From: Phycicoccus endophyticus
GTDB lineage: Bacteria; Actinomycetota; Actinomycetes; Actinomycetales; Dermatophilaceae
Assembly: GCF_011326735.1 (NCBI RefSeq)
Contig: NZ_JAANCN010000011.1
Location: 1 to 64,000 of the forward strand
DNA length: 64,000 nt
Direction: 5' to 3'
Shown: one piece after another, positions 22,613 to 61,679 of the stretch
How the letters are laid out: every line of letters begins with the position of its first letter
How positions within the stretch are numbered: position 1 is the stretch's first letter
The notes under the pieces: generated by a model
Database searches by the model: none
Seen by the model: the letters and a program-made list of their open reading frames with translations, nothing else
What the model was told of the DNA's origin: nothing
Translations under genes and position numbers: made by a program

Positions 22613-22660
22613 CGTCACCTCGCTCCGCCGTCGCCCGGCGCACCCGGTGCCCGGACCTCG

Positions 22661-23799: not shown

Positions 23800-25011
23800 T
23801 CAGGCGCCGCCGTCGGCCTGCTGGGCGATGCCTCCGGTCTCGTCCGCGTCGGCCCGGTCCAGCCAGGCCCGCACCGCGGCGCCGTGCTCGTCGAGGCCCG
23901 GCGGGGGCAGGTGGGTGGGTCGCCCCCCGGCATAGGGGAGGTCGTCGAACCGCAGCGCCGGACCGGGCAGCTCGATGCGCCCGAGGACGGGGTGCTCGAC
24001 GTCGACGACGAGCCCCTGGGAGCGCGTCTGCTCCCAGTCGTAGACCTCACCGATGTCGCGGACGCGGCCGGCCGGGATGCCGAGCTCGACGAGGCGGGCG
24101 AGCAGGTCGGGCGCCGACCACCCCGAGAACGCGGCGTCGACGACCGCCAGGAGATGGTCGTGGTGGGTGACCCGCGCCGCGTTCGTCGCGAGCAGCGGGT
24201 CCTCGGGGTCGATGTCGAAGGCCTCGGCGAAGCGCACCCACAGGCCCTGGGAGCCGACGGCGAGCTGGACCGGCTCGTCGGCGGTGTGGAAGAGCCCGTA
24301 CGGGGCGAGTGCGGGGTGGTGGTTGCCGCGGGCGCGGCCGACCTGCCCGGCCACGGTGTACGCCGTGCCCTGGAAGGCGTGCACCCCGACGACGGAGGCG
24401 AGCAGCGAGGTGCGCACGACCCGGCCGCGCCCGGTGAGCTCGCGCTCGTGGAGCGCGGCGGTGACCCCGAGGGCCCCGTGCAGGCCGGCGAGCAGGTCGC
24501 CGATCGGCACCCCTACCCGCTGGGGGTCCTCCGGGCCGGAGCCGGTGACCGACATCAGGCCGGCCTCGCCCTGGGCGATCTGGTCGTAGCCGGCGCGCCC
24601 GCCCTCGGGGCCGTCGTGGCCGAAACCGCTGATCGAGAGGACGACGAGGCGGGGGTTGAGGGTGTGCAGGTGCTCGACGTCGAAGCCCAGACGGTCGAGG
24701 ACGCCCGGGCGGAAGTTCTCGACGAGGACGTCGGCGTGCCGGACGAGCCGGGCCAGGGTGGCGGCGCCGTCCTCGCTCTTGAGGTCGAGGACGATCGACT
24801 CCTTGTTGCGGTTGCACGCGAGGAAGTAGGTCGAGACCGGGTCCTCCTCCGGGCCGACGAACGGGGGGCCCCAGTGGCGGGTGTCGTCGCCGGTCCCCGA
24901 CTCCACCTTGACCACCCGGGCGCCGAGGTCGCCGAGGAGCATCGCGGCGTGCGGGCCGGCGAGGGCGCGCGAGAGGTCGACGACGGTGATGCCGTCTAGC
25001 GGTCCGGGCAC
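23800..25011 (-). CDS. CaiB/BaiF family CoA-transferase (class III)
   Basis: 403 residues. Family landmarks: [33 protein letters not shown] at the N-terminus, [28 protein letters not shown] and, at about residue 178, the catalytic Asp in [16 protein letters not shown]. Class III enzymes exchange CoA between carboxylic acids through an aspartyl-CoA intermediate. A malonate or methylmalonate acceptor would fit a barbiturate pathway, but formate, carnitine or other acids are equally possible from sequence. It is single, with GAGGAG before its GTG and a TAGGTT -10 element upstream, and is divergent from a TetR-type operon. Confidence 0.88.
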
Positions 25012-27351: not shown

Positions 27352-28022
27352 GCCGGGCGACGCGCGAGAACCTCATGGACGCGGCGGTGCGGCTCACGGC
27401 GTCGGCGGGGGCGCGCGGGCTCACCGCGCGGGCCATCGGCGCCGAGGCCGGGGTGAACCAGGCGCTGATCTTCTACCACTTCGACGGGGTCGAGGGGCTG
27501 CTGCGGGCCGCCTACGAGCGCGCGACCCGGGCGATGGTCGAGGACTACGCGGCGGCCCTGGAGAAGGCGTCGAGCTTCGCCGACCTCTACGCGGTCGGCG
27601 AGCAGCTCGGTGCGCGTTCGCGGGCCGACGGCAGTGCCGCCCTGCTCACCCACGTCATGGCCGCCAGCCACCACGACGCCCTGCTGGCCTCAGCCGTGGC
27701 CGATGCCCTCGGCGTGTGGCGCCGGGTCGTCGCCGACGCGGTCGACCGGGTCGTGGCGGCGCACGGGCTCGAGGGGACCCTCGAGGTCGACGCGCTGGCC
27801 CGGGCGCTCGCGGCGTCTACCATCGGGATGGTCACCGTCGACGCGCTTCCCGGGGCGCCCCTCGGCGAGACGATGCGCGGGCTCGACCCGCTGCCCCGCG
27901 TCGCCGACGCGCTCGCCTCGCGCTTCCCGCGGGCCCTGGCCCGGCGCATCGCGCGGGTCGCCGGCCGGGGTCAGAGCCAGTCGACCTCGGCCGCGGTGGC
28001 GCCGCCGGACAGGCGCGCGTAG
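27348..28022 (+). CDS. TetR-family regulator of the membrane operon
   Basis: 224 residues. An N-terminal TetR helix-turn-helix (residues about 3-50: ATRENLMDAAVRLTAS, then LTARAIGAEAGVNQALIFYHF) is followed by an all-helical ligand-binding part. It is the last gene of the operon that begins with two 16-bp palindromes, so autorepression is likely. Its 3' end overlaps hyuB, which runs the other way, by 52 bases. The ligand is unknown. Confidence 0.88.
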   Translation: MSRATRENLMDAAVRLTASAGARGLTARAIGAEAGVNQALIFYHFDGVEGLLRAAYERATRAMVEDYAAALEKASSFADLYAVGEQLGARSRADGSAALLTHVMAASHHDALLASAVADALGVWRRVVADAVDRVVAAHGLEGTLEVDALARALAASTIGMVTVDALPGAPLGETMRGLDPLPRVADALASRFPRALARRIARVAGRGQSQSTSAAVAPPDRRA

Positions 28023-29953: not shown

Positions 29954-32283
29954 CGAGCCTCCAGCGGTGGGGTCAGCACGAGGTTGCCCCAGGGGTCGAC
30001 GCGCATCTCGACGCCCGGATGGACCGGGACGGTCGAGCCGAACTCCTCGACGACGGCCGGCCCGACGAGGCGGTCGCCGGCGCGCAGCTCCGGCCGCCAC
30101 AGGACGGGGGTGTCGACGTAGCCGACGTCCGGGTCGAAGCACACCGGCCGGACCGAGCGCTGCCCCGGCAGCGCGCCGCCCCCCCGTCCTCCATTCGACC
30201 AATAGGTCGATTCGGGTACGTCGGGGGAGGTGTCGTGTTCCTGAGGTGACCAATAGGTCGATTCGGGTACGCGTCCCCGTGCTTCAGGTGACCTATTGGT
30301 CGATTCGGGTACGTGGGGGGAGGTGTCGTGTTCCTGAGGTGACCTATTGGTCGATTCGGTTACGCGTCCCCGTGCTTCAGGTGACCTATTGGTCGATTCG
30401 GGGACGGAGGGGGGAGGGGTGGCGCGCTCGGGGAGGCGCTGGAGCTCGGGGCGGATGATCGGGCCGACGCCGGTGACCCTCAGGTTGACCCACTCCACGT
30501 GCTGGCTCGGGTCGCCCCGGAAGTCGTACCCGTACAGCTGGCGGTGCTCGTCGTGGAACCGGCCGGCGACCCGCTGCGCCCAGCCCGCGTCGACCGGGCC
30601 CGGGTCGGCGGGGACCCGCACCTCGTAGGCCTGGCCGACGTAGCGCAGGTCGGCGCTGCGGACGAACTCGTGCTGCTCCGGGGCGAACCCCTCGGCGAGG
30701 AGCGCTCCGGCCGCCCGGGCGGTCAACCCCTCGAGGACCGCGGACACCGCCTCGAGGTCGAGCCGGTCGTGGCGGGCGACGTGCGTCTGGACGTCGTCGA
30801 TGCGCACGTCGACGGTGAGCAGCCCGAAGGCGCTGAGGTTGCCGGGGTTGACCGGGACGACGGCGCCGGCGAGACCGAGGACGTCGACGAGCCGGCAGGC
30901 GAGCAGCGAGCCGGACCCGCCGAAGGTCGTCAGGACGAACTCGCGTACGTCGAGGCCGCGCTTGACCGACACCTGCCGCAGGGCGTTGGCCTGGTTCCAC
31001 GCGGAGATCTCCAGGATGCCGCTCGCGCAGTGCTCGACGTCGAGCCCGAGCCTCCGGCCGAGCGCGGCCACCCCGGCGCGGGCCGCCTCGACGTCGAGCG
31101 CGATCTCGCCGCCGAGCAGGTGGGCGGGGATGCGGCCGAGGACGACGTGCGCGTCGGTCACCGTCGGCTCGGTGCCGCCGCGGCCGTAGCACAGCGGCCC
31201 CGGGTCGGCCCCGGCGGAGCGCGGCCCCACCTTGAGGGTCCCCTCGGGTGAGACCCAGGCGACCGAGCCGCCACCCGCGCCGACGGTGACGACGTCGATC
31301 ATCGGGATCTTGCTCGGGTAGGCGCCGACCGACCCCTCGGTCGTCAGCGTCGGGCGGCCGTCGAGGACGACCGAGACGTCGGTCGAGGTGCCGCCACCGT
31401 CGCAGGTGAGCACCTTGGCGAACCCCGAGCGCTCCGCGACGAGCGCCGCGCCGAGCGCCCCGGCCGCCGGGCCGGAGAGCACCGTGGTCACCGGCTGGTG
31501 GACCACCTCGGCGGCCGAGAGCACGCCCCCGTTGGACTTCATGACCGAGAACGGCACCGGCCGGCCGGCGAACCGCTCGAGCCGCTCGCGGATGTTCGTC
31601 ACGTACCGCGCGACGTCGGGCTTGACGGCGGCGTCGACGAGCGTCGTCATCGCCCGCTCGTACTCGCGGTACTCGCGCAGCACCTCGCTGCTCAGCGAGA
31701 CGACGGCATCCGGATGCTCGCGCCGCAGCACCTCGAGCATGGCGCGCTCGTGCTCGTCGTTGGCGTAGGAGTGCAGGAAGCAGACGCCCACGGTCGTGAT
31801 GCCCCGGTCCCGGAAGAAGCGGGCCGCCGCGACGGCGTCCTCCTCGCAGAACGGACGCACCTGCGCACCGGAGGCGTCGAGCCGGCCGTGGACGGTGCGG
31901 ACGGCGTCCGCGGGGACGATGCGCGGAGGCTTGACCCAGAAGTAGGAGTTGCCGTAGCCGTCGGGCACCGCCTGGCGGGCGATCTCGAGCATGAACTCGT
32001 AGCCCTCGGTCGTGACGAACCCGAGCCGCTCGACCTTCCCCTCGAGCAGCTTGTTCGTCGCGACCGTGGTCCCGTGCGCGACCGCCGCGAGGTCCGCGCC
32101 CGAGGCACCCATCGCCTCGAGGACCTTCTCGAGCCCGGTGACGAAGCCGTCGGCGGGGTTGGCCGGGGTACTCGGCGTCTTCGTCGTCACGACCTCCCCG
32201 GAAGCCTCGTCGACGGCGACGACGTCCGTGAAGGTGCCGCCGGTGTCGATCCCGACCCGGATCCGCCGCTGCGCTCGCGCCAT
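29950..32283 (-). CDS. hyuA: Hydantoinase A/oxoprolinase family protein with in-frame repeat insertion
   Basis: About 777 residues, some 70-80 more than the family's usual length. The ATP-binding start VGIDTGGTFTDVVAVDE, AHGTTVATNKLLEG, SLSSEVLREYREYERAMTTLVDAAV and the VLTCDGGGTSTDVS loop are intact, so the catalytic part looks functional. The extra length sits at residues about 622-698, where five copies of a Pro-Glu-Ser-Thr-rich unit (PESTNRS or PESTYWS) interrupt the C-terminal region at a natural loop. After it the protein resumes at RPVCFDPDVGYVDTPVLW. The start is ATG 32283; an in-frame GTG two codons upstream (32289) is possible. It forms an operon with hyuB. Confidence 0.88.
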   Translation of the reverse strand: MARAQRRIRVGIDTGGTFTDVVAVDEASGEVVTTKTPSTPANPADGFVTGLEKVLEAMGASGADLAAVAHGTTVATNKLLEGKVERLGFVTTEGYEFMLEIARQAVPDGYGNSYFWVKPPRIVPADAVRTVHGRLDASGAQVRPFCEEDAVAAARFFRDRGITTVGVCFLHSYANDEHERAMLEVLRREHPDAVVSLSSEVLREYREYERAMTTLVDAAVKPDVARYVTNIRERLERFAGRPVPFSVMKSNGGVLSAAEVVHQPVTTVLSGPAAGALGAALVAERSGFAKVLTCDGGGTSTDVSVVLDGRPTLTTEGSVGAYPSKIPMIDVVTVGAGGGSVAWVSPEGTLKVGPRSAGADPGPLCYGRGGTEPTVTDAHVVLGRIPAHLLGGEIALDVEAARAGVAALGRRLGLDVEHCASGILEISAWNQANALRQVSVKRGLDVREFVLTTFGGSGSLLACRLVDVLGLAGAVVPVNPGNLSAFGLLTVDVRIDDVQTHVARHDRLDLEAVSAVLEGLTARAAGALLAEGFAPEQHEFVRSADLRYVGQAYEVRVPADPGPVDAGWAQRVAGRFHDEHRQLYGYDFRGDPSQHVEWVNLRVTGVGPIIRPELQRLPERATPPPSVPESTNRSPEARGRVTESTNRSPQEHDTSPHVPESTNRSPEARGRVPESTYWSPQEHDTSPDVPESTYWSNGGRGGGALPGQRSVRPVCFDPDVGYVDTPVLWRPELRAGDRLVGPAVVEEFGSTVPVHPGVEMRVDPWGNLVLTPPLEAR
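30197..30399 (-). repeat. Five-copy in-frame repeat with a flipping palindromic core, inside hyuA
   Basis: The core GACCNATNGGTCGATTC-like element starts at 30197, 30248, 30290, 30341 and 30383. Spacings alternate 51, 42, 51, 42 bases, so the true period is 93 bases (31 codons) and the frame is kept. Copies 1-2 have AATA and copies 3-5 have TATT between GACC and GGTC; these loops are reverse complements of each other, so the core alone changed orientation. The 51-base spacers share GTGTCGTGTTCCTGAGGT and the 42-base spacers share GCGTCCCCGTGCTTCAGGT. I saw no further copy elsewhere in the window. Confidence 0.9.
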
Positions 32284-32464
32284 GCGCACGATCCAACCGG
32301 CCCTCCCCGGTGGCCCGCGCCGGCAGATGCTGCCGACGGGTGGGTCGGCCGACGGCCATCCTCGCCAGTGGCGCCGACCACTGTCCGCTGCCCCATGGCC
32401 CGCTGCTGGTGTCCGCCGACCCGTGCCCCGCGGCCCGCCACCGGCGCGACCGTGGCGCGGGCGC

Positions 32465-35862: not shown

Positions 35863-36762
35863 TCAGGCGTGCGGGAAGGCGCTCTTGGCGGGAGCCTCGA
35901 GGTCCTCGCGGTAGCCCCGGATGAGGTCGAGGTTGCGGTCGCGCAGGTGGTCGAAGCCCTGGCCGACGTTGGAGCCGGGGGTCAGCGAGGCCAGGGCCTC
36001 GGCGGGGTCGAGCCGCGCCGAGACCCACCCCTCGTGCGAGGCGGCCTTGGCGACGATGTGCCCGACGGGGGTGACGACGTGGCTGTTGCCGAAGTAGTGC
36101 ACGCCGGCGGAGTCGGTGCCGGTGGCGTTGGCGCCGACGACGAAGACGTGGTTGTCGTAGGCCCGGGCCCGGGAGGTCAGCTCCCAGACGTCGGCCGAAC
36201 GCAGCAGGGCCGAGGGCCGCACGATGACCTCGGCGCCCTGCACGGCCTGGATGCGGGCGAGCTCGGGGTAGTCGCCGTCGAAGCAGATGATCATCCCGAT
36301 CCGGCCGAGCGCAGTGTCGACGACGGTCACCGTGTCGCCGGGGGTCACCCAGCCACCGCCGTCGACCGCCTCGGAGCAGAACGGGTGCGTCTTGCGGTAG
36401 ACGCCGACGACCTCGCCGCGGGGGTCGAGCAGCACCGAGGCGTTGTAGACGACCTCGGGGGTCGGGCCGCGCTCGTAGGTGCCGACGACGAGGTGGACGC
36501 CGAGCTCGGCGGCCAGGTCGGCCAGCCGCCGGATGACCGGCCCGGGCACCTCGGAGACGAGCTCCCACAGCCGCTCGGTGGGGCAGTCGGGCGTGAACCC
36601 CGTCGTGCACGACTCCGGCAGGACGACGAGCTCGGCCCCGGTGGCCTCGACGCAGCGGCGGGTGAGGTCGAGGCAGCGGTCGATGTTGCGGGTGACCACC
36701 TCGGGCGTCAGCGGCTCGGGAACGGGTGCCACCTGGACGGCGGCGGCGGTGAACGGGCGCAT
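35863..36762 (-). CDS. Nitrilase-superfamily amidase (N-carbamoyl hydrolase-like)
   Basis: 299 residues. The Glu-Lys-Cys triad is visible at Glu50 (ELVVLPES), Lys124 (YRKTHPF) and Cys160 (IICFDGDYPE). Members hydrolyse amides or N-carbamoyl groups of small acids. The second of two adjacent ATGs was chosen because AGGAGG then has 6-base spacing. It is the last gene of the permease/Mo-hydroxylase operon and overlaps the coxG-like stop. In a barbiturate pathway it could hydrolyse ureidomalonate or malonamate; other amides are possible. Confidence 0.88.
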   Translation of the reverse strand: MRPFTAAAVQVAPVPEPLTPEVVTRNIDRCLDLTRRCVEATGAELVVLPESCTTGFTPDCPTERLWELVSEVPGPVIRRLADLAAELGVHLVVGTYERGPTPEVVYNASVLLDPRGEVVGVYRKTHPFCSEAVDGGGWVTPGDTVTVVDTALGRIGMIICFDGDYPELARIQAVQGAEVIVRPSALLRSADVWELTSRARAYDNHVFVVGANATGTDSAGVHYFGNSHVVTPVGHIVAKAASHEGWVSARLDPAEALASLTPGSNVGQGFDHLRDRNLDLIRGYREDLEAPAKSAFPHA

Positions 36763-37421
36763 CATCGGCCTCCTAGCCTGCGGCCGAGCGCGACGCCGGC
36801 GAGCGCGAGCAGCCCACCGAGGAGGACTCCGGCGGCGAAGCCCGCGCCCGAGTCCAGGCTCAGCGACGCGCTGGCGTTCGCCGTCGCCCGGCGCTCCCCA
36901 CGGTAGGTCGCCGCGCTCTCCTCGGGAAGCCCCGCGCCCTCGGGAGCCCCGGGCGCGGCCACGGCTGCCCCGGCCGGGCCGCCCGCGGCGAGGTCGGCGT
37001 CGAGCGCGCCGAAGAACTGCCCGGCCATCTTGCGGCCGACGCCGGCGAGCATCCGCTGGCCGACGCCGCCGACGGTCCCCCCGACGGTGGCGTCGGCGTC
37101 GTAGGCGAGCTCGGTGCCGCCACCTTCGGTGGGGGAGAGCAAGACCCGCACGTCGGCCTCGACGGTGCCCGGCGCGCCGGCGCCCGAGGCACGCAGGGTC
37201 AGGCCCGAGGGCGCCTCGAGGTCGGTGAGCGCGACCTCGCCGGTGTACGTGCCCTTGACCGACGCGACCCCGGCGGTCACCGTCATCGCGTAGCGGTCCT
37301 CGCCGATGGTGTGCAGCGACTCGCACCCGGGCAGGCAGCGGGCGAGCACGGCGGGGTCGAGGAGGGCCTGCCACACCTGCTCGGGCGGCGCGGCGAGCGT
37401 CGAGCTGCCGGTGATCTTCAT
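36762..37421 (-). CDS. CoxG-like SRPBCC protein with membrane anchor
   Basis: 219 residues. An SRPBCC domain covers residues 1-145, beginning MKITGSSTLAAPPEQVWQAL and containing GCESLHTIGEDRYAM. A linker and a C-terminal hydrophobic helix (GFAAGVLLGGLLALAGVAL) ending in Arg-rich residues follow. CoxG-type proteins recruit molybdenum hydroxylases such as CO dehydrogenase to the membrane. The gene lies directly behind the large hydroxylase subunit with a 4-base overlap, which supports that role here. Confidence 0.85.
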   Translation of the reverse strand: MKITGSSTLAAPPEQVWQALLDPAVLARCLPGCESLHTIGEDRYAMTVTAGVASVKGTYTGEVALTDLEAPSGLTLRASGAGAPGTVEADVRVLLSPTEGGGTELAYDADATVGGTVGGVGQRMLAGVGRKMAGQFFGALDADLAAGGPAGAAVAAPGAPEGAGLPEESAATYRGERRATANASASLSLDSGAGFAAGVLLGGLLALAGVALGRRLGGR

Positions 37422-39823
37422 GACGGGCCTTCCTGCGCGGTGACGGTCCCGGCGGCGTGCTGCTGGCGCAGCGCCCACAGCTCGGGCGGGCTGATCGGCA
37501 TGGAGCGGATCGGGATGCCCTCGGCGTCCTCGATGGCCGAGGCGATGACCGCCGAGACCGGGATGGTGCCGGCCTCGCCGGCTCCCTTGAGCCCCAGAGG
37601 GTTCAGCGGGGAGGGTGTCTCGAGGTGGTCGGTCTCGACGTGCGGCACCTCCGAGGCGTAGGGCATGAGGAAGTCCATGAACGAGGCGTTGAGCAGCTGG
37701 CCGCCCTCGTCGTAGACCATGCGCTCGTAGAGGGCGCCCCCGACGCCCTGCGCGACGCCGCCGTGGACCTGGCCCTCGACGATCATCGGGTTGACCATGA
37801 CGCCGCAGTCGTGGACGACGCAGTAGCGCAGGATGCGGACCTCGGCCGTGACCGGGTCGGTCTCGACGACCGCGGCGTGCATCCCGTTGGCGAAGGTGGC
37901 CTGGGTGGGCGAGTAGAAGTCCCGGCCCTCGAGCCCCGGCTCGTCGTCCTCCGCGACCGGTGGCCGCTGCGGGTCGAAGGTGCCGGCGAACTGGGTGGCC
38001 GCCTGCGCCGCGGTGTCGAAGGCGTAGCGCAGGGGGTTGGCCAGGACCGCGACCGTCCCGAGGTCGACGGCGGTGCCGGGGGCGCCGCGGACCGAGACGA
38101 CGCCGTCGGCGATCTCGAGGTCGTCGGGCGAGACCTCGAGGGCGTCGGCGGCGATGCGCAGCGCCTTGGCCCGCACGACCCGGGCCGCGAGGGCCACGGC
38201 GTTGCCGGACATCACCGCCCCCCGGGAGGCGAACGTGCCGACGGCGTAGGGCATCGCCCGGGTGTCCCCGGTGGTCACGTGGACGTCCTCGAGGCGGACG
38301 CCGAGCTCGTCGGCGACGACCTGTGCCAGGACCGTCTGGTGCCCCTGTCCCTGGGTGGTCAGCCCGGTCGCGACGTTGACCCGCCCGTCGGTCTCGACGT
38401 GGACGTGCCCGCCCTCGTACGGCCCGACGCCGGTGCCCTCGACGTAGCAGCCGATGCCGAGCCCGACCCGCCGCCCGGCGCGCTCGGCCTCGGCGCGGTA
38501 GCCCTCGAAGTCCTCCCAGCCGACGAGCGCCTTGAGCGCCGCCAGCGACGCGGGGAAGTCCCCGGAGTCGTACTTCAGCGGCCGGCCGTCCTGGAACATC
38601 AGCCCCTGGTCGTAGGGCATCTCCTCGGGCTGGATGAAGTTGCGGCTGCGCACCTCGGCGCGGTCCAGCCCGAGGCGCGCGGCGATGGCGTCCATCGTGC
38701 GCTCCATCGCGAAGCAGCCCTGCGGGCGGCCGGCGCCGCGGTAGGGCGTCACGAGGACGGTGTTCGTGTACAGCGACCAGAACTCGACGCGGTAGGCGCC
38801 CGGCTTGTACGGCCCGAGCAGCTGGGTGGCCGTGATGATCGGGACGATGATGCCGTAGGGGGTGTAGGCGCCGTTGTCGTGCCAGAACCGCACGTCGAGG
38901 GCGAGCAGGTGGCCCTCGTCGTCGAAGCCGACGGTGACCTCCTGGAGCTGCCCGCGCTCGTGCGCCGCGGAGACGAAGTGCTCGCGGCGGTCCTCGGTCC
39001 ACTTCACGTCGTGCCCGAGGACGCGCGCCGCCCAGGGCACGAGCACCTCCTCGGGCCAGGGGTGGACGATCTTGACCCCGAAACCGCCCCCGACGTCCGG
39101 GGTGACGACCTCGACCTTGGCCAGCGGCAGGCCGAGCTTGGCGGCGACCGCGGCCCGCAGCCCGGTGCTCGTCTGGGTGGAGGAGTACAGCCGCAGCGAG
39201 CCGTCGTCGGTGTCCCAGCGGGCGAGGACGCCCCGGCCCTCGAGCGGGGTCGAGGCGCTGCGTTCGACGGCCAGGTCGAGGGTGAGCCGGTGGGGTGCCG
39301 CGGCCATCGCGCTCTCGAGGTCGCCCACCTCCTGCAGGAGGGTGGCCGCGACGTTGCCGGGGACGTCGTCGTGGACGAGCCGGGCCGCCTCCCGGGCGGC
39401 CGGGATGCCGACGACCGGGGGCAGCGGCTCGTAGTCGACGCGGATGCGCGCGCAGGCGTCCTCGGCGAGGTAGCGGTCGCGGGCGACGACCATGACGACC
39501 GCCTCGCCGACGTGGTTGACCTCCTGCGTGGCCAGGCAGTACCCGGTGCGCGGGTGGGTCAGCGCGGGGTGGGGGATGAGCACCGGCAGCGGCTCGGCGA
39601 CCCGGCCGGGCAGGTCCTCCCAGGTGTAGACCGCCTCGACGCCCTCGAGCTCCCAGGCGTCGCCGATGTCGATGTCGAGGATGCGGGCGTGGGCGTGCGG
39701 GCTGCGGACGAAGGCGGCGTGCAGGGCGCCGCGGCCGAGGTCGTCGACGAAGCGGCCGTTGCCGGTGAGCAGCCGGGGGTCCTCGCGGCGCTGGACCTTC
39801 TCGCCGACCTGGCGGGTGCTCAC
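37418..39823 (-). CDS. Molybdenum hydroxylase large subunit (CoxL-like, form II)
   Basis: 801 residues, xanthine-oxidase-family large subunit. N-terminal GEKVQRREDPRLLTGNGRFVDD; substrate/Moco loops around residues 360-366 (PYRGAGR), TQGQGHQTVLAQVVADELG and the catalytic base Glu750 in LKGAGEAGTIP. The loop reads PYRGAGR, not the Cys-containing AYXCSFR loop of true CO dehydrogenase, so CO oxidation is not supported. The family hydroxylates N-heterocycles such as purines, uracil or nicotinate. GTGA overlap with the small subunit. No XdhC/CoxI-type maturation gene is visible in the window. Confidence 0.9.
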   Translation of the reverse strand: MSTRQVGEKVQRREDPRLLTGNGRFVDDLGRGALHAAFVRSPHAHARILDIDIGDAWELEGVEAVYTWEDLPGRVAEPLPVLIPHPALTHPRTGYCLATQEVNHVGEAVVMVVARDRYLAEDACARIRVDYEPLPPVVGIPAAREAARLVHDDVPGNVAATLLQEVGDLESAMAAAPHRLTLDLAVERSASTPLEGRGVLARWDTDDGSLRLYSSTQTSTGLRAAVAAKLGLPLAKVEVVTPDVGGGFGVKIVHPWPEEVLVPWAARVLGHDVKWTEDRREHFVSAAHERGQLQEVTVGFDDEGHLLALDVRFWHDNGAYTPYGIIVPIITATQLLGPYKPGAYRVEFWSLYTNTVLVTPYRGAGRPQGCFAMERTMDAIAARLGLDRAEVRSRNFIQPEEMPYDQGLMFQDGRPLKYDSGDFPASLAALKALVGWEDFEGYRAEAERAGRRVGLGIGCYVEGTGVGPYEGGHVHVETDGRVNVATGLTTQGQGHQTVLAQVVADELGVRLEDVHVTTGDTRAMPYAVGTFASRGAVMSGNAVALAARVVRAKALRIAADALEVSPDDLEIADGVVSVRGAPGTAVDLGTVAVLANPLRYAFDTAAQAATQFAGTFDPQRPPVAEDDEPGLEGRDFYSPTQATFANGMHAAVVETDPVTAEVRILRYCVVHDCGVMVNPMIVEGQVHGGVAQGVGGALYERMVYDEGGQLLNASFMDFLMPYASEVPHVETDHLETPSPLNPLGLKGAGEAGTIPVSAVIASAIEDAEGIPIRSMPISPPELWALRQQHAAGTVTAQEGPS

Positions 39824-40359
39824 GGCGTCGGCTCCGGCGTGGCGCCGCGGCGCAGCTCGGCGGCCCGCAGGACCGCGGAGACGATGTTCTGGTAGCCGGT
39901 GCACCGGCACAGGTTGCCGGAGATCGCCTCGCGGGCCTCGGCCTCGGTGGGGTCGGGGGTGTCCTCGAGGTAGGCCGTGACCGTCGTGAGGAAGCCCGGC
40001 GTGCAGAACCCGCACTGGAGGGCGTGGCACTCGAGGAACGCGCGCTGCACCGGCCCGAGCGCGCCCGGGTCGGACCCGAGGCCCTCGACCGTGGTCACCT
40101 CGTGGGGCTGGGCACTCACGGCGAACACGAGGCAGGCGCGTGCGGGCTCGCCGTCGAGCAGGACCGTGCAGGCGCCGCAGACGCCGTGCTCACAGCCGAC
40201 GTGCGTGCCGGTCAGGCCGAGGTCGTGGCGCAGGAAGTCCGAGAGCAGCCGGCGGGCGGGGACGCCGGCGGTGCGGCTGACCCCGTTGACGCGCAGGGTG
40301 ACCTCGAGCAGCTCCTCGGCGCCCGGCGCCCCGGCGGCGGAGCCCGCCTGCCCGCTCAC
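39820..40359 (-). CDS. Molybdenum hydroxylase 2Fe-2S subunit (CoxS-like)
   Basis: 179 residues. The plant-type 2Fe-2S cluster ligands are in GCEHGVCGACTVLLDG with the fourth Cys in RACLVFA. The second cluster uses LQCGFCTPGF and NLCRCTGYQNIV. It passes electrons from the molybdenum site to the FAD subunit. Overlaps of 4 bases with both neighbours show a single translation unit. The first 15 residues are a low-complexity extension. Confidence 0.95.
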   Translation of the reverse strand: MSGQAGSAAGAPGAEELLEVTLRVNGVSRTAGVPARRLLSDFLRHDLGLTGTHVGCEHGVCGACTVLLDGEPARACLVFAVSAQPHEVTTVEGLGSDPGALGPVQRAFLECHALQCGFCTPGFLTTVTAYLEDTPDPTEAEAREAISGNLCRCTGYQNIVSAVLRAAELRRGATPEPTP

Positions 40360-41228
40360 GCCGCACCCGCCCGCGCCTCGTCGCGCAGCCCGCGCAGCGC
40401 GCGCACCGTGAGCTCGGCCGCGAGCATCCGCCGGTACTCCGCGGGGGCGTGGATGTCGCTCTCGGGGTCGACGTGGCCGCGCACGAGCTCGGCGACCTCG
40501 CCGGCGGGCAGCTCGGGCAGGGCGAGCCCGGCGAGGACCGGGGTCAGGTCGAGCACGTCGGGGACGGGCGTCACCGAGACGAACGAGGCTCGGGCGGCGG
40601 TGACCTCCTCGCCGGCGAGCGTCACGGCGAGCGCGACCCCGGCGAGGGCGTAGTCGCCCCGGCGTCGCGCGGACTCGGCGAAGGCGGTGCGCGTGCCGGC
40701 GGGGAAGCGCTCGAAGCGCACGGCGACGGCGAGCTCGTCCGGCTCCAGGGTGGTCTCCATCGGCCCGGTGAAGAGGTCGGCGGCGGCGACCTCGCGCCCG
40801 CCCCGGGGGCCGGCGACCTCGACGGTGCCCCGGCACAGGGCGAGCACCGCGGGCATCTCACCGGCCGGGTCGGCGTGCGCCACCGAGCCGACGGTCGTGC
40901 CCCGGGTGCGGATCGCGGGGTGCGCGACGTGCCGGACCGCCTGGCGCAGCAGCGGGAGCGCGTCGGCCGCCTCGGCGTGCCGCTCGAGGCCGGCGTGCCG
41001 CACGAGCGCCCCGACCCGCACCCCGGCCTCGTCGACCTCGACGGCGTCGAGCCCGGCGACGCCCCCGATGTCGACGAGGTGGCCGGGGGTCACGAGCCGC
41101 ATCGAGAGCAGCGGGACGAGGCTCTGCCCGCCCGCGAGCACCTTGCCGTCGTGCCCGACCTGCGCGAGGACGGCGACCGCCTCGGGCACGGTGCGGGGCG
41201 CGTGGTGGACGAAGGGCGCGGGCTTCAC
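40356..41228 (-). CDS. Molybdenum hydroxylase FAD subunit (CoxM-like)
   Basis: 290 residues. FAD-binding motifs AGGQSLVPLLSMRL (residues about 33-46) and TTVGSVAHADPAGEMPA are typical of CoxM/XdhB. The C-terminal CO-dehydrogenase flavoprotein domain ends with RRMLAAELTVRALRGL. The GTG at 41228 gives the family N-terminus VKPAPFVHHAPRTVPEAV; longer frames upstream add Thr/Arg-rich non-conserved residues. It is the first of the three hydroxylase subunit genes, 67 bases behind the permease. Confidence 0.92.
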   Translation of the reverse strand: MKPAPFVHHAPRTVPEAVAVLAQVGHDGKVLAGGQSLVPLLSMRLVTPGHLVDIGGVAGLDAVEVDEAGVRVGALVRHAGLERHAEAADALPLLRQAVRHVAHPAIRTRGTTVGSVAHADPAGEMPAVLALCRGTVEVAGPRGGREVAAADLFTGPMETTLEPDELAVAVRFERFPAGTRTAFAESARRRGDYALAGVALAVTLAGEEVTAARASFVSVTPVPDVLDLTPVLAGLALPELPAGEVAELVRGHVDPESDIHAPAEYRRMLAAELTVRALRGLRDEARAGAA

Positions 41229-41295: not shown

Positions 41296-42795
41296 TCAGG
41301 GACGCCGGTCGCGCCCCGGGTCACGGGGCCCGACCGCCCCGGGGTAGCCCTCCTGGTAGAGGTCGTCGACGCCGTCGCTGTCGCCGTAGACGTGGTCACC
41401 GAGGGTGATGCCCGCGCCGTCGGCCTGGGCGCGCATCTCCGCGGGGGCGATGGCCCGCGCGAGGTGCCAGCCGGCGACCGTGACGATGGTGCCGAGCGCG
41501 ATCCCGCTCAGCGAGAAGTCGTCGGTGAACTGGAGGCTGACGTCGCCGATGCCGATGATGACGCCGGCCGCGACGGGCACGAGGTTGATCGGGTTGCCGA
41601 AGTCGACCCCGTTCTCCTTCCAGATCTTCGCGCCGAGCAGCCCGATCATCCCGTAGAGGACGACGGTGATCCCGCCGAGCACCCCGCCGGGGACGGAGGC
41701 GACGAGCGCGCCGAACTTCGGCGAGAGCCCGAAGAGGACCGCGACCGCCGCGGCGACGTAGTAGGCGGCCGTCGAGTACACCCGGGTGGCGGCCATGACG
41801 CCGATGTTCTCGGCGTAGGTCGTCGTGGGGGAGCCGCCGACCGAGGTGGCCAGGACGGTGCCGACACCGTCGGCGGCGATGGCCCGGCCCATGACCGGGT
41901 CGAGGTCATGGCCGGTCATCTCGGCGACCGCCTTGACGTGACCGGTGTTCTCGGCGATGAGCGCGATGACCGCGGGCAGCACGAGCAGGACGGCGGCGAC
42001 CGAGAAGCTCGGGGCGTGCCAGCCGACGACCTCCTGGCCGTCGGCGGCCACGGTCGTCTGGTCCGGGAAGCCGAGCCAGGCCGCGCTGCCGATGCCGGAG
42101 GTGTCCCAGCGCAGGTGGTCGGTGGCCTCGGTGGCGCCGGCGAGGACGGAGTTGATCTGGCCGAGCGTGGAGTCGAGCAGCCACGACAGCAGGGTGCCGA
42201 AGACGAGCGCGAGGAAGACCGCGATCCGGCCGACGAAGCCGCGGAAGGCGACGGCCACGACGACGGTGAAGAGCATCGTGAGCACGGCGACCCACTGGTC
42301 CTGGGGCCAGTAGGTGCCGGCGACCACGGGGGCGAGGTTGAAGCCGATGAGCATGACGACGGCGCCGGTGACGACGGGCGGCAGGACCTCGTGGAGCATC
42401 CGCGACCCGAGCAGGTGGATCGCCACACCGACGAGCGCGAGGACGACGCCGGAGACGAGGATGGCCCCGGTGACCTCGGCGGAGTCGCCGCCCTGGGCGC
42501 GGATCGCGGCGACCCCGCCCACGAACGACGCGGACGTGCCGAGGTAGCTCGGGACCTTCCCCTGGACGATGAGGAGGAAGGCGATCGTCGCGATGCCGCT
42601 CATCATGATCGCCAGCTGGGCGTTGAGACCCATGATGAGCGGGAAGACGAAGGTCGCCCCGAACATCGCGACGACGTGCTGGGCGCCGAGGCCGATGGTG
42701 CGACCCCACGAGAGGCGCTCGTCGGGGGCCACCACCTCTCCCGGGGCGAGCGAGCGACCGTCGCCCTTGAGCTTCCAACCGAGACCGAGGGACAT
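41296..42795 (-). CDS. NCS2-family nucleobase (uracil-type) permease
   Basis: 499 residues with about fourteen hydrophobic segments. GLGAQHVVAMFGATFVFPLIMG opens the transmembrane core; VIALIAENTGHVKAVAEMTG contains the Glu of the transport site; GGSPTTTYAENIGVMAATRVYST is the UraA/PyrP-type signature rather than the xanthine-type one. It would import uracil or a close pyrimidine with protons. A GC-rich promoter with TAGGTT at 42857-42862 precedes it. First gene of the operon with the hydroxylase and amidase, which suggests it brings in their substrate. Confidence 0.9.
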   Translation of the reverse strand: MSLGLGWKLKGDGRSLAPGEVVAPDERLSWGRTIGLGAQHVVAMFGATFVFPLIMGLNAQLAIMMSGIATIAFLLIVQGKVPSYLGTSASFVGGVAAIRAQGGDSAEVTGAILVSGVVLALVGVAIHLLGSRMLHEVLPPVVTGAVVMLIGFNLAPVVAGTYWPQDQWVAVLTMLFTVVVAVAFRGFVGRIAVFLALVFGTLLSWLLDSTLGQINSVLAGATEATDHLRWDTSGIGSAAWLGFPDQTTVAADGQEVVGWHAPSFSVAAVLLVLPAVIALIAENTGHVKAVAEMTGHDLDPVMGRAIAADGVGTVLATSVGGSPTTTYAENIGVMAATRVYSTAAYYVAAAVAVLFGLSPKFGALVASVPGGVLGGITVVLYGMIGLLGAKIWKENGVDFGNPINLVPVAAGVIIGIGDVSLQFTDDFSLSGIALGTIVTVAGWHLARAIAPAEMRAQADGAGITLGDHVYGDSDGVDDLYQEGYPGAVGPRDPGRDRRP

Positions 42796-43506: not shown

Positions 43507-44865
43507 TCACAGGCCCTTCATCCGGTGGACGCGCAGGGCGAGGGCCAGGGTGAGGCGCAGCTGGGGGTCGGTGGTGAACGGACCGAGCATCCGCTCGAGC
43601 TTGGCGATCCGGTAGCGCAGCGTGTTGTAGTGGAAGAAGAGCCGGCGCGCGGTCTCGGCGACGTTGAGGTTGGTGTCGATGAGCACCGCGAGGGTGTGCC
43701 GCAGGTCGGCGTTCTCCGGGGCGTCGTCGCTCGCGAGCTCGCCGAGGGACTCGGTGACGAAGCGGCGCAGGTCGGCCGAGTCGGGGACGAGGGCGAGCAG
43801 CCGGTCGATGCCGAGCTGGTCGAAGTGCGCGAGCCCCGAGCCGCCGTGGACCTGGCGCCCGACCCGCACGGCCGTCAGGGCCTCCTCGTAGGCCCGGGGC
43901 AGCTCGGCGAGCGAGGTGACCACGCGCGAGACGCCGGCGGTGAACGTGCGCCGGCCGCCGCCGCCGTCGCCCCGCACGACCCGGACGAGCTCGCCGACCG
44001 CGCGCAGCACCGTGTCCGGGTCGGCCGCCGGGTCGACCGGCAGCAGGACGACGACCTCCTGGCTGAAGCCGGCGACGGCGACCGAGGTGTCCCGGGCACG
44101 CACGGCCTGGGTCCAGGCGCGCACGAAGCGCTCCTGGAGGGAGCGCACCTCCTCGGCGGTGCGCGTGGTCTCGGCGTCGTTCTCGTCGGTCTCCGCGGCG
44201 ACGACGACGAGGGGGCGGTCGATGTCCCACCCGAGCGAGCTGGCGTGCGAGGCGGCGTCGGCCGGGTCGCCCGCCCGCCCGGCGAGGGCGTCGCGCAGGA
44301 ACTCCGCGCGGTAGCGGCTCTCGACCGCGGCGACCGCCTGGTCCTTGGTCATCACGAGGGCGGCGACGGTCGCCGCCCGCTCGAGCAGGTGGACGTCGGT
44401 GCGGGTGAGCCCGGGGCCCGGGGAGAACGCCCCGAGCACGCCGAGGTCGGAGGAGCCGGCGACGATCCGCACGAACGCCCGGGTGGGGTCGGCCGCCCGG
44501 GCCGGGTCGCGCCACCCGACGGGCTCGTCCTCGACGACGAGCCGGCCGGTGCGGTCGAAGCAGGCCAGCTGGGTCGGGGAGGTGCCCTCGAGGGTGCCGG
44601 CGCTCGCGAGGACCCGGCCGTCGGTCGTCGTCACCGTGGCGGCGCCGCCGACGATGCCGGCCACCGCGGCCGCCACCTCGGCCAGCCCGCCACCGTCGAG
44701 GACCACCCGGACGAGGACGCGGTGCACCTCGTCCTCGCGGGCGAGCAGGGCGCGCTGGTGCTCGACGAGCTCGGCGAGCGCGGCACGGTCGGCGCCGGGC
44801 TGCCCGGCCGGCGCTCCTGGCAAGGTCTGTGCGCCATCCGGGCCATCGTTGGCAACTTCGACCAT
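43507..44865 (-). CDS. PucR-family transcriptional regulator
   Basis: 452 residues. An N-terminal GAF-like sensing part (about 30-190) is followed by a central GGDEF-like/CdaR domain (about 200-370). The C-terminal PucR HTH (about 395-435: LIDTNLNVAETARRLFFHYNTLRYRIAKLERMLG) is diagnostic. PucR of Bacillus controls purine breakdown; relatives control allantoin, polyketide or amino-acid genes. It is divergent from the DUF2877-FdrA-DUF1116 operon by 34 bases, so it most likely regulates that operon and perhaps the permease operon on the other side. The effector is unknown. Confidence 0.92.
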   Translation of the reverse strand: MVEVANDGPDGAQTLPGAPAGQPGADRAALAELVEHQRALLAREDEVHRVLVRVVLDGGGLAEVAAAVAGIVGGAATVTTTDGRVLASAGTLEGTSPTQLACFDRTGRLVVEDEPVGWRDPARAADPTRAFVRIVAGSSDLGVLGAFSPGPGLTRTDVHLLERAATVAALVMTKDQAVAAVESRYRAEFLRDALAGRAGDPADAASHASSLGWDIDRPLVVVAAETDENDAETTRTAEEVRSLQERFVRAWTQAVRARDTSVAVAGFSQEVVVLLPVDPAADPDTVLRAVGELVRVVRGDGGGGRRTFTAGVSRVVTSLAELPRAYEEALTAVRVGRQVHGGSGLAHFDQLGIDRLLALVPDSADLRRFVTESLGELASDDAPENADLRHTLAVLIDTNLNVAETARRLFFHYNTLRYRIAKLERMLGPFTTDPQLRLTLALALRVHRMKGL

Positions 44866-44887
44866 CCGGCCACTGTAACGGCGTCAC

Positions 44888-44893: not shown

Positions 44894-44899
44894 CGGCGT

Positions 44900-45748
44900 A
44901 TGTCGTTCTCCCGCTCCGACACCGCGCGGCGGGGGCCCGCTGCGCCGGTGCTGCCGGGGGCCCTCTCGCCGCTCACCGCCGACCTCGTGCACGGCCCGCG
45001 GCGCGTGGCGGTCGTGCTCGGCGCCTACCGGGTCGGGGTCTACCTCGGCGTGGGCGGCCGGGTGCTGCCGGTGCTGGCCGCCGACGGGCTCGCACTGCCG
45101 GGCGCCCTGCGGCTCGCCGAGACCTCGGCGGCTCTCGACCTGGGTGCCGTGGCCGGTGACCGGGTCGTCCTCGGCGCGGGCACGGTCGGGCTGGCGGGTG
45201 TCACCGTGCGGGGCGTGCGCACCTGGCGGCCGGCCCGGGTGCGCGCCGGGGCCGTCTCCGGCGGCGCCCGGCAGGGGCGGGCGGTCCGCTCGCTGCTCGA
45301 CGGGGCGAGCGCCGAGGCGCCGGGCTGGCTGGCCCGCGGTGTGCGGGGCGCCCTCGGGGGCGGGGACCCGCACGCGGCGGTGCACGCCCTCGTCGGCCGT
45401 GGGCCGGGCCTGACCCCGAGCGGTGACGACGCCCTGGCCGGCGGTCTCCTCGTCCGTCGCGCGCGCGGAGCGGCTCTCGCCGCCGGCGACCCCCTGCTGC
45501 ACGCGGTCCGTGGCCGGCTCGGTGCCACGACGGCGGTCTCCGCCTCCCTCCTCGCCGCCGCGGGCGGCGGGTGGGCCACCCCCGAGGCCGTCCGGCTCGT
45601 CGACGCCGCGGCGCGGGCGGACCTCGACGCCGTCGAGGCCGCGCTGCCGGCCGTGCTCGCCCTCGGGCACACCTCCGGGCGCGACCTCGTCGCCGGGGTC
45701 GCGGCGGCCCTCGGCGCGCTCGACGTGACGTCCAGGAGCGCCGCGTGA
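44900..45748 (+). CDS. DUF2877 protein (AllH/YlbF-like)
   Basis: 282 residues. The DUF2877 signatures are ALVGRGPGLTPSGDDALAGGLL (about residues 168-189), then GATTAVSASLL and the C-terminal LGHTSGRDLVAGVAAAL. In E. coli the matching protein (AllH, formerly YlbF) is one of three parts of oxamate transcarbamylase together with FdrA and YlbE, both encoded directly downstream here. Its own role in that complex is not something I can read from sequence. It starts the operon; its stop overlaps the next start (GTGA). Confidence 0.85.
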   Translation: MSFSRSDTARRGPAAPVLPGALSPLTADLVHGPRRVAVVLGAYRVGVYLGVGGRVLPVLAADGLALPGALRLAETSAALDLGAVAGDRVVLGAGTVGLAGVTVRGVRTWRPARVRAGAVSGGARQGRAVRSLLDGASAEAPGWLARGVRGALGGGDPHAAVHALVGRGPGLTPSGDDALAGGLLVRRARGAALAAGDPLLHAVRGRLGATTAVSASLLAAAGGGWATPEAVRLVDAAARADLDAVEAALPAVLALGHTSGRDLVAGVAAALGALDVTSRSAA

Positions 45749-47232
45749 GCGTCCACGTCGAGCTGCGCCCGGGTGCCTACCACGACTCGGTGAGCCTGCT
45801 GCAGGTCTCGCGGGTGGTGGCGGGCGCCGCTGGGGTCGAGGCGGCCCAGGTGGCGATGGCGACCGAGCTCAACGTCGAGGTGCTCACGGGCATGGGCTTC
45901 CTCGTCCCGCCGGACGCCGGCCCGAACGACCTCGTCGTCGCGCTGCGGGCGGCCGACGACGCGGGTCTGGGCGCCGGTCTCGCCGCGCTCGAGGACGCCC
46001 TGCGCGGGCTGTCGACCACGGCCTCCCGCACGACGGGCGAGGAGGTCCCGCCCGCGACCCTCGGCTCGGCCGTGCGGCGTGCCGGAGCCGGGCTGGCCCT
46101 GGTCTCCGTCCCGGGGCCGCACGCGGTCACCGAGGCCTACGACGCGGTCGCCGCGGGGGCCTCGGTGATGCTCTACTCCGACAACGTCCCCGTCGAGGAC
46201 GAGGTCGCGCTCAAGGACGCCGCCGCGGCCGCCGACGTGCTCGTCATGGGGCCCGACTGCGGCACCGCCCTCGTCGGCGGGGTCGCCCTCGGGTTCGCCG
46301 ACGTCGTCCGCCCCGGGCCGGTCGGCATCGTCGCCGCGTCGGGCACCGGTGCGCAGCAGGTGATGTGCCTGCTCGACGCCGCCGGCGTCGGGGTCAGCCA
46401 CTGCCTGGGCGTCGGCGGGCGGGACCTCTCAGCGCGGGTTGCCGGCCGCTCGACCCGGCAGGCGCTGCGGGCGCTGGCCGCCGACGAGGCGACCGGCTGG
46501 GTCCTCGTCGTCGCCAAGCCACCGGACGAGGAGGTGCTCGAGGCGATGCGCGCCGAGGCGGCCGCCCTCGGCCTGCGGGTGCACTGGGCGACCCTGGGCG
46601 CCGGGCGGCCGGACCTCACGGCCGCGCTCGAGAGCGCGCTGACCGCCGAGGGGGTGGCCGTCCCGCAGTGGCCGGCCACGTTCGCGGCGCCCGAGGACCC
46701 CGACCTCGCGCAGGGCCGGTCCCTGCGCGGGCTGTTCTGTGGCGGGACCCTCGCCGCGGAGGCGGCGATCGTCGCGGCGGAGACGCTCGGCCCGCTCGCG
46801 AGCAACCTCGGCCACGGCACCGCGCTCGGGCCCGACCTGCGGGCCCCCGGCCACCTCGTCGTCGACTTCGGCGCCGACGAGCTGACCCGCGGGCGGGCCC
46901 ATCCGATGATCGACCCCACGCTGCGGACGGAGCGCGTGGCGGCGGAGGCCGCGGACCCCGGGTGCGGGGTCCTCCTGCTCGACCTCGTCCTCGGGCACGG
47001 CGCCCACCCGGACCCGGCAGGCGAGCTCGCCGAGGCCGTCGAGGCCGCTCGCGCCACCGCGCGAGCCGACGGGCGCGCGCTGCCGGTCGTCGTCTCCCTC
47101 ACCGGCACCGACGCCGACCCACAAGACCGCGGGCGGTGTGCCGAGGTGCTCGCCGCCGCCGGCGCCTCGGTTCTCCTGTCCAACGCCGCGGCCACCCGGC
47201 ACGCCGTGGCCGCCCTCGGGGGTGCCCGATGA
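45745..47232 (+). CDS. fdrA: FdrA family protein (oxamate transcarbamylase subunit-like)
   Basis: 495 residues, built like succinyl-CoA ligase alpha. MATELNVEVLTGMGF lies near residue 40, VLVMGPDCGTALVGG near 165, and VGIVAASGTGAQQVMCLLD and GVGGRDLSARVAGRSTRQAL follow. The C-terminal half has LRGLFCGGTLAAEAAIV, NLGHGTALGPDLRAPGHLVVDFGADELTRGRAHPMIDP and LLLDLVLGHGAHPDPAGEL. In E. coli FdrA/AllF is part of the enzyme that splits oxalurate to oxamate and carbamoyl phosphate. Here no allantoin genes are seen, so the carbamoyl donor may differ. It overlaps both neighbours by 4 bases. Confidence 0.9.
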   Translation: MSVHVELRPGAYHDSVSLLQVSRVVAGAAGVEAAQVAMATELNVEVLTGMGFLVPPDAGPNDLVVALRAADDAGLGAGLAALEDALRGLSTTASRTTGEEVPPATLGSAVRRAGAGLALVSVPGPHAVTEAYDAVAAGASVMLYSDNVPVEDEVALKDAAAAADVLVMGPDCGTALVGGVALGFADVVRPGPVGIVAASGTGAQQVMCLLDAAGVGVSHCLGVGGRDLSARVAGRSTRQALRALAADEATGWVLVVAKPPDEEVLEAMRAEAAALGLRVHWATLGAGRPDLTAALESALTAEGVAVPQWPATFAAPEDPDLAQGRSLRGLFCGGTLAAEAAIVAAETLGPLASNLGHGTALGPDLRAPGHLVVDFGADELTRGRAHPMIDPTLRTERVAAEAADPGCGVLLLDLVLGHGAHPDPAGELAEAVEAARATARADGRALPVVVSLTGTDADPQDRGRCAEVLAAAGASVLLSNAAATRHAVAALGGAR

Positions 47233-48635
47233 GCGTCCCGCTGCACGGGCTGCTGGCCACCGACCCGGTGGTCGCGACCTCCGGGGTGGCCCTCTTCGCC
47301 GACGCCCTGCGGGCCCAGGCGGTGCCCGTCACCGAGGTGGCCTGGCGCCCGCCGCCGGCCGGCACCGAGGGGCCGCTCGCCCGGGTCATGGCCGACCCGC
47401 GGCGCGCGGGCGCCAACGCCGAGGCGGTCGCCCGGATGACCGCGGCCGGTGCCGAGCTCGTCGACGTCGCCCCCGCCGCGGAGGTCCTCGGGCTGCGGCC
47501 GGGCACGTTCCTCCACGCGGGGCCGCCCATCGACTGGGAGCGTGCCTCCGGACCGCTGCGCGGCGCGCTCGTCGGGGCGGTGCTGCTCGAGGGCCTCGCG
47601 CAGACCCCGGAGGAGGCCGAGCGGCGGCTCGCGGCCGGTGACGTCGACCTCGAGCCCTGCCACCACCACGGCGGCGTCGGGCCGATGGCCGGCGTGGTCA
47701 GCCCCTCGATGTGGGTCTACGTCCTGCGCGACGAGGTGCACGACAACCTCTCCTGGTGCAGCCTCAACGAGGGCCTGGGGAAGGTGCTGCGCTACGGCGC
47801 CTACGGCCCGGAGGTCATCAAGCGGCTGCGGTGGATGGGCTCGGTCCTCGGGCCGATCCTGCGTCAGGCGCTGCGGTCCGTCGGCCCGGTCGACGTCCGG
47901 GCGGTCATCGCGCAGATGCTCCAGATGGGCGACGAGGGGCACAACCGCAACCGGGCCGGCAGCCTGCTGCTGCTGCGCGAGCTGCTGCCGGGGATGGTCA
48001 CCGCCGACGCCCCGAGCAGCGACGTCGCCGAGGCGGTGCGCTTCTCGGGGGCCAACGAGCACTTCTTCCTCAACCTCGGGATGCCGGCGTGCAAGCTGGC
48101 CACGCTCGCGGCCGAGGGCATCCCGGGCTCGAGCGTCGTGACGACGATGGCGCGCAACGGCACCGACTTCGGCATCCGGGTCTCCGGGACGGGCGAGCAG
48201 TGGTTCACCGGCCCGGCGAACACGCCCGAGGGCCTCTTCCTCGGCGACTACGGGCCGGAGGACGCCAACCCGGACATCGGCGACTCGGCGATCACCGAGA
48301 CCGCGGGCATCGGGGGGTTCGCGATGGCTGCCGCCCCGGCCATCGTGCGGTTCGTCGGCGGTGACGTCCCGTTCGCGCTGGCCGCGACCCGGCGGATGTA
48401 CGAGGTCACCGTGGGGGAGCACCCCGCCTACCAGGTGCCGGTGCTCGGCTTCCGCGGGACGCCGGTGGGCATCGACGTGGCGTCGGTGGTCCGCACCGGC
48501 GAGCTGCCCCAGATCAACACCGGGATGGCCGGGCGGGTCGCGGGCACCGGGCAGGTCGGCGCCGGCCTCGTCACGCCGCCGGCGGAGTGCTTCGTCGGTG
48601 CGCTGGAGGCTCTGGCCGCGGCCGTTCCCCGCTGA
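47229..48635 (+). CDS. DUF1116 protein (AllG/YlbE-like)
   Basis: 468 residues. Landmarks: [122 protein letters not shown] and [19 protein letters not shown]. These match DUF1116, the third part of the oxamate transcarbamylase triad. The conserved His-rich and Asn/Arg-rich patches are probable active-site parts. It is the last gene of the operon. Its 3' end overlaps the facing membrane-protein gene by 65 bases. Confidence 0.9.
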
Positions 48636-60170: not shown

Positions 60171-60176
60171 TGCTAG

Positions 60177-61677: not shown

Positions 61678-61679
61678 GT

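Follow-up and report, generated by a model that had tools for sequence, protein, structure and literature searches.

A barbiturase-linked AllHFG triad of Phycicoccus endophyticus as the putative phosphorolytic end of an oxidative pyrimidine pathway

Introduction

The AllFGH enzyme of Escherichia coli interconverts oxalurate plus phosphate and oxamate plus carbamoyl phosphate; the assay was run toward oxalurate, and the genes behind this activity were identified as late as 2024, with oxalurate as the compound (PMC11326118). In nitrifiers, a second study describes AllFGH and the carbamate kinase AllK without upstream purine genes and beside biuret hydrolase (PMC12625717), so that AllFGH without allantoin genes is already known. 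According to PMC3758960, oxidative pyrimidine breakdown proceeds from barbiturate to 3-oxo-3-ureidopropionate (ureidomalonate) by barbiturase, after which ureidomalonase yields malonic acid and urea. Here we describe a 64,000-nucleotide stretch of Phycicoccus endophyticus (Dermatophilaceae; contig NZ_JAANCN010000011.1, positions 1 to 64,000, hereafter the window), in which homologs of all three AllFGH subunits are encoded in the same gene island as a barbiturase and a carbamate kinase. We propose, with a probability of roughly 0.8 and on the strength of gene content and linkage, that this AllHFG closes an oxidative route of pyrimidine breakdown by phosphorolysis.

Results

The allHFG triad and its divergent regulator

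The triad and the adjacent regulator are located as follows.

44900..45748, plus strand: AllH (DUF2877) subunit; Pfam PF11392; start codon uncertain
45745..47232, plus strand: AllF / FdrA subunit; GTG start; Pfam and PDB relative 3dmy
47229..48635, plus strand: AllG (DUF1116) subunit; Pfam PF06545; PDB relative 3clq
43507..44865, minus strand: PucR/CdaR-type regulator, divergent from allHFG; Pfam domains

A preliminary description of this DNA had reported a DUF2877/FdrA/DUF1116 triad with 4-base overlaps under a divergent PucR gene, and both the coordinates and the Pfam matches bear this out. The open reading frames overlap by GTGA at the allH-allF junction and by ATGA at the allF-allG junction. 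AllH (PF11392, 76.7 bits), AllF (Ligase_CoA, PF00549, 104.6 bits) and AllG (PF06545, 323.4 bits) all score above their Pfam cut-offs, and homologs of the three subunits of AllFGH oxamate carbamoyltransferase are thus encoded together. AllF reaches 379 bits with the NCBIfam FdrA model NF004760, below the cut-off of 433. Identity to the E. coli proteins is 37.6% for AllF and 47.7% for AllG. A search of the PDB returned 3dmy (FdrA) as the solved relative of AllF and 3clq, an AllG relative, for AllG; it gave no solved relative for AllH. Near-invariant alignment columns are retained by AllG at 64 of 64 positions (140-row alignment) and by AllF at 75 of 77 (75-row alignment), and judged by these residues the genes look intact.

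HTH_30 and GGDEF_2 were matched in the PucR-type gene, and PF07905 was not matched there in the Pfam scan. The listed starts of the PucR and AllH genes (44865-44900) are just 34 bases apart, which is short for a divergent promoter; the true start of one or both may lie further inside. A small plus-strand gene (43089-43481) is found between a permease gene and the PucR gene. Its product is 71-75% identical in five members of the genus; it has no Pfam match, and no such gene was seen in the other 12 islands fetched.

A barbiturase and a carbamate kinase in the same window

Two further genes of the window, unmentioned in the preliminary description, are central to our proposal.

20538..21665, minus strand: barbiturase (EC 3.5.2.1); PF09663; 660 bits to PDB 5hwe
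21677..22618, minus strand: carbamate kinase; TIGR00746 322.7 bits (cut-off 358.25); PRK12352 274 bits (cut-off 266)

The barbiturase gene starts eleven bases behind the carbamate kinase gene. The latter, about 22 kb from allHFG, supplies the dedicated kinase that accompanies AllFGH. Two strong and two weak carbamate kinase matches were obtained in the genome, and the other strong one adjoins an ornithine carbamoyltransferase gene on contig C12.

In the PDB, the PF09663 protein scores 660 bits against the barbiturase 5hwe versus 324 bits against the best cyanuric acid hydrolase. It is 83.7% identical to the Rhodococcus erythropolis gene product, and the 362 residues shown for 5hwe match the R. 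erythropolis NBRC 15567 gene without a difference. Both the window protein and 5hwe carry Asn187 where cyanuric acid hydrolases have Arg188. Replacement of this arginine in barbiturases is described in PMC4051656, where glutamine is stated for the barbiturase group. Among 126 PF09663 matches, in which some genomes are counted twice, the residue at this site is Asn in 122, Arg in two (stretches L259 and L262) and Tyr in one (L260), and one sequence is cut off. At 468.8 bits (cut-off 360), the window protein is matched by the NCBIfam model NF052395, which carries the name cyanuric acid amidohydrolase and may misname further barbiturases in the same manner. From its 84% identity to the solved barbiturase, the predicted substrate is barbiturate. 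Within the trio of uracil hydroxylase, barbiturase and ureidomalonate-splitting enzyme, barbiturase is the only one that homology assigns firmly, and candidates for all three are linked here.

Co-occurrence and linkage of AllG and barbiturase

The association of AllG with barbiturase is strong. At an E-value level of 0.001, 70 of 149 genomes of the family have AllG and 67 have PF09663: 66 have both, four AllG only (G146, G066, G055, G087), one PF09663 only (G071) and 78 neither. When AllG must reach 286 bits and PF09663 must exceed its cut-off, the split is 64 both, two AllG only (G146, G066), two PF09663 only (G018, G071) and 81 neither. The corresponding Fisher values, 3e-36 and 4e-37, overstate independence because the genomes are related. 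Uricase, present in 49 of the 149 genomes, is unassociated with AllG (p = 0.73).

Several individual genomes have features of their own. G146, G066 and G071 are fragmented assemblies of 240-710 contigs, and the G071 barbiturase lies with its adjoining carbamate kinase on a 5.8 kb contig. AllG is only weakly matched in G055 and G087. The PF09663 protein of G018 is 41% identical to that of the window and has Arg at the key site, and is probably no barbiturase; this genome has a single AllG, a remote paralog scoring 209 bits. In G085, PF09663 stays below the cut-off, and no barbiturase is seen on the contig.

For the distance test, 66 AllG and 65 PF09663 positions were entered. In 54 pairs the two genes share a contig; the distance is 19-44 kb (median 27 kb) in 52 of these and about 2.1 Mb in the other two (G068, G089). 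Eleven pairs were split over different contigs.

In a sample of 346 genomes from across the Actinomycetota, AllG was found in 43, PF09663 in 24 and both in 19. PF09663 is present in 19 of the 26 genomes with AllG at 300 bits or more versus none of the 17 with weaker AllG, and 14 of the 19 pairs lie on one contig, 3.7-44 kb apart. Five genomes have PF09663 without AllG, with Arg (G386, G247), Tyr (G376), Phe (G387) or Asn (G492) at the key site. Their PF09663 proteins are 37-43% identical to the window barbiturase; the value is 66-70% in 11 fetched stretches that have both genes. An amidase adjoins PF09663 in G376, G387 and G492. Stretches L260, L261 and L270 carry a distant PF09663 gene (about 40% identical) beside an amidase in a genome without AllG, L260 also beside cox genes; they may represent another hydrolytic variant of the pathway.

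Phylogeny of AllG

We computed a tree of 79 AllG sequences. The 61 high-scoring sequences form one clade (100/100), and all but one (G146) come from genomes with PF09663. The E. coli sequence and 17 paralogs, mostly from genomes that also have PF09663, fall outside; their branches are long, and their order and the sister group of the main clade are unsure. The preliminary description had considered that the FdrA protein might group with confirmed oxamate enzymes; checked here on AllG, no such grouping with the E. coli enzyme was seen. Other AllG paralogs (L233, L234, L236, L238, L242, L080) have AllF and carbamate kinase nearby and no barbiturase in the stretch, and are perhaps further putative acylurea transcarbamylases.

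Search for an allantoin route

The preliminary description had reported the absence of allantoin genes for the window. In the genome as a whole, which measures 3.18 Mb and is 100% complete, uricase and AllD gave no match, and for AllD the E. coli control scored above cut-off. The allantoinase model gave seven matches, the best at 230.7 bits (cut-off 357.85) and the other six at 25.5 bits or less; the best one was rejected as an allantoinase, being a dihydroorotase (615 bits, cut-off 538). A search for allantoicase gave no match in the genome and is uninformative, as its controls were equally silent. No allantoin pathway that would supply oxalurate to AllFGH was thus found in terms of uricase, AllD and allantoinase.

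Other genes of the island and their conservation

The remaining genes assigned to the island are listed below.

41296..42792, minus strand: NCS2 nucleobase permease; best NCBIfam model RutG, 352.9 bits (cut-off 758.65); start approximate
40356..41180, minus strand: coxM-like FAD subunit of molybdenum hydroxylase, candidate uracil dehydrogenase; NCBIfam and synteny; start approximate
39820..40380, minus strand: coxS-like 2Fe-2S subunit; NCBIfam and synteny; start approximate
37418..39850, minus strand: coxL-like molybdenum subunit; NCBIfam and PDB relatives; start approximate
36765..37379, minus strand: coxG-like accessory protein; synteny
35863..36768, minus strand: carbon-nitrogen (CN) hydrolase, candidate malonamate amidase; Pfam; start approximate
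29950..32289, minus strand: HyuA-like protein; caprolactamase alpha model 486 bits (cut-off 1000); perhaps a second ring-opener
27971..29950, minus strand: HyuB-like protein (Hydantoinase_B); start approximate
23800..25011, minus strand: CoA-transferase family III, candidate for malonate activation

NCBIfam gave no match for 36765..37379, which we take to be coxG. The coxL-like subunit is labelled carbon monoxide dehydrogenase (CODH) group 5 by NCBIfam, above cut-off. Its nearest PDB relatives are quinoline 2-oxidoreductase (469 bits) and 6-hydroxypseudooxynicotine dehydrogenase (457 bits), followed by CO dehydrogenase (408 bits). The first two enzymes hydroxylate N-heterocycles, and as they outscore CO dehydrogenase we rejected a true CO dehydrogenase. 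The motif PYRGAGR of this subunit is presumably distinct from that of form I CODH.

Homology-based gene maps were made for 17 relatives with linked AllG and barbiturase, out of 51 other such genomes. Barbiturase, carbamate kinase, HyuA, HyuB, coxL, coxS, coxM, coxG, the NCS2 permease, PucR, AllF and AllG are present in all 17, AllH in 16, a CN-hydrolase adjoining coxG in 14 and the CoA-transferase in 13. The 11 more distant stretches, picked because AllG and barbiturase lie close, contain carbamate kinase in nine, cox genes in eight (the match in L248 being weak, 30-47%), an NCS2-like permease (26-31% identity) in eight, PucR in eight and HyuA in only one. In L250, one strand carries barbiturase, permease, carbamate kinase, AllF, AllG, coxM, coxS, coxL, coxG and an amidase, in this order.

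Among 80 named barbiturase loci, 73 have a carbamate kinase ending less than 400 bp upstream; the other seven are five Rhodococcus-type loci, L133 and L190. Of 98 stretches, 25 have an AccDA-like carboxyltransferase, among them four of the five Rhodococcus-type loci; it was not found in the window. This protein and the CoA-transferase would fit malonate as the carbon product. At the right end of the window, the genes at 59800-63800 have a third-position GC of 0.73-0.81, against mostly more than 0.9 elsewhere, as if acquired.

The Rhodococcus-type loci and the amidases

We searched 49 named barbiturase genomes for AllG (50 of the 80 loci were chosen). AllG is present in 45; the four without it (L117-L120) are Rhodococcus and Rhodococcoides, and the two AllG copies of R. 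koreensis are both distant paralogs outside the main clade. In all five Rhodococcus-type loci, a PF01425 amidase directly follows barbiturase. These amidases are 76-100% identical (the copy in L117 lies at 11215-12708), and this position makes them a candidate ureidomalonase.

Several AllG-type clusters have, in the interval from HyuA to coxG, an amidase with about 40% identity to the Rhodococcus enzyme. The 37 of 98 stretches with both HyuA and coxG, in which some genomes occur twice, have the CN-hydrolase in 18, the amidase in 14, both in none and neither in five (200 bits). We read the two as unrelated enzymes for one amide-hydrolysing step, which would most simply be malonamate to malonate. 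The G038 amidase matches GatA (189.5 bits), biuret hydrolase (183.8 bits) and malonamidase E2 (94.7 bits) in the PDB; these are many kinds of amidase, and the substrate is not settled by them.

Discussion

From the genes, their intact conserved residues, their co-occurrence and their linkage, we infer each of the substrates in the following pathway. The NCS2 permease would import uracil, which the three-subunit molybdenum hydroxylase would convert to barbiturate. Barbiturase would open the ring to ureidomalonate (3-oxo-3-ureidopropanoate), and AllFGH would cleave the latter with phosphate to malonamate and carbamoyl phosphate. Carbamate kinase would then convert carbamoyl phosphate to ATP, CO2 and NH3. 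Malonamate would be hydrolysed to malonate and NH3 by the CN-hydrolase or the amidase-signature enzyme, and malonate handled by the CoA-transferase, with the AccDA-like protein in some relatives. The phosphorolytic step would replace the urea-releasing ureidomalonase of Rhodococcus, the carbamoyl bond being kept as ATP. Ureidomalonate is oxalurate plus one CH2, and both are N-carbamoyl amides of a carboxylic acid. The preliminary description had suggested a possibly new carbamoyl donor and had listed ureidomalonate; because the ureidomalonate-making barbiturase belongs to the same conserved gene set, ureidomalonate can now be named as the putative donor.

Taken jointly, it seems fairly probable that the distinct AllFGH clade is a malonamate transcarbamylase, with ATP formed via carbamate kinase, in a widespread actinobacterial uracil pathway, that the Rhodococcus amidase is ureidomalonase, that the cox-like enzyme is a uracil/thymine dehydrogenase and that HyuAB is an ATP-dependent alternative ring-opener.

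Several points weigh against this proposal. The relatedness of the genomes behind the Fisher values and the two genomes with AllG and PF09663 about 2.1 Mb apart have been given above. In G492, the PF09663 protein is distant (41%) but carries Asn, and AllG is absent. Seven genomes of the phylum sample have AllG above 300 bits but no PF09663, and of the five that were fetched, two (G352, G331; stretches L264 and L267) carry cox-HyuA-HyuB-AllF-AllG without barbiturase; AllFGH of the window type may take other ring-opened substrates too. The amidase of AllG-type clusters that is about 40% identical to the Rhodococcus enzyme could itself hydrolyse ureidomalonate. Finally, HyuAB has no assigned step in the proposed pathway. 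It may be an ATP-dependent second ring-opener feeding AllFGH, and 5-methylbarbiturate from thymine is a guess at its substrate.

HyuAB also suggests a different arrangement, in which it would use ATP to open a ring of the hydantoin or lactam type and hand the resulting N-carbamoyl compound to AllFGH, barbiturase being a parallel branch. The presence of HyuAB in 17 of 17 islands and the two clusters without barbiturase would fit, but HyuA occurs in just one of the 11 distant barbiturase-AllG stretches and, within the family, nearly every genome with either barbiturase or AllG has the other as well; we regard this arrangement as unlikely.

Slightly less likely still is a classical oxamate transcarbamylase splitting oxalurate that is made elsewhere or taken up. 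The three-subunit family match and the carbamate kinase companion are as in E. coli, and the AllFGHK of nitrifiers lacking upstream purine genes is read in this way in PMC12625717. Against it, no AllD, uricase or allantoinase was found in the genome, AllG is unassociated with uricase and tightly linked to barbiturase, and its clade is separate from E. coli; on these grounds we rejected an allantoin/oxalurate origin.

Least probable, and rejected, is a cyanuric acid hydrolase whose product, 1-carboxybiuret or biuret, is phosphorolysed by AllFGH: despite the NCBIfam name, carboxybiuret being the NH isostere of ureidomalonate, and the pairing of AllFGH with biuret hydrolase in nitrifiers (PMC12625717), the ring-opener is 84% identical to a solved barbiturase and shares its Asn for Arg188, Arg-bearing PF09663 proteins (G386, G247, G018) occur without window-type AllG, and the heterocycle hydroxylase and malonate-type genes would be left without a role.

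If AllHFG indeed ends an oxidative pyrimidine pathway, AllFGH would have a second substrate in a different pathway, marked by a separate clade and a conserved set of genes, and would become a family of acylurea transcarbamylases. The pathway from uracil through barbiturate to malonate and urea would become ATP-yielding in most of the sampled barbiturase-bearing Actinomycetota. To our knowledge, uracil dehydrogenase and ureidomalonase have had no gene, and both would gain direct gene candidates. No link between AllFGH and barbiturate was found among the matches listed in the open-licence literature searched, a limited negative, and the link appears new.

Comparison with known systems

The closest described system is AllFGH of E. 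coli with the carbamate kinase AllK (PMC11326118). The window encodes homologs of its three subunits and likewise a carbamate kinase dedicated to the enzyme, and the reaction proposed here is of the same type, acylurea plus phosphate giving amide plus carbamoyl phosphate. It differs in gene order (H-F-G), in its separate AllG clade, in sequence (AllF 37.6% and AllG 47.7% identical) and in having a molybdenum hydroxylase and barbiturase, no allantoin genes being found.

In Rubrobacter xylanophilus, according to PMC4016543, a ureidoglycine carbamoyltransferase likewise replaces a hydrolytic ureide step by phosphorolysis, beside a carbamate kinase; unlike AllFGH, it is ATCase-like and acts on allantoate in purine breakdown.

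The oxidative pyrimidine pathway of R. erythropolis shares a barbiturase 84% identical to that of the window, and in L117 the NCS2 permease, cox-like hydroxylase, CoA-transferase and AccDA-like protein lie near barbiturase. In the Rhodococcus group, however, AllG is absent from four of five genomes and represented only by distant paralogs in the fifth, and barbiturase is adjoined by an amidase, with no carbamate kinase there.

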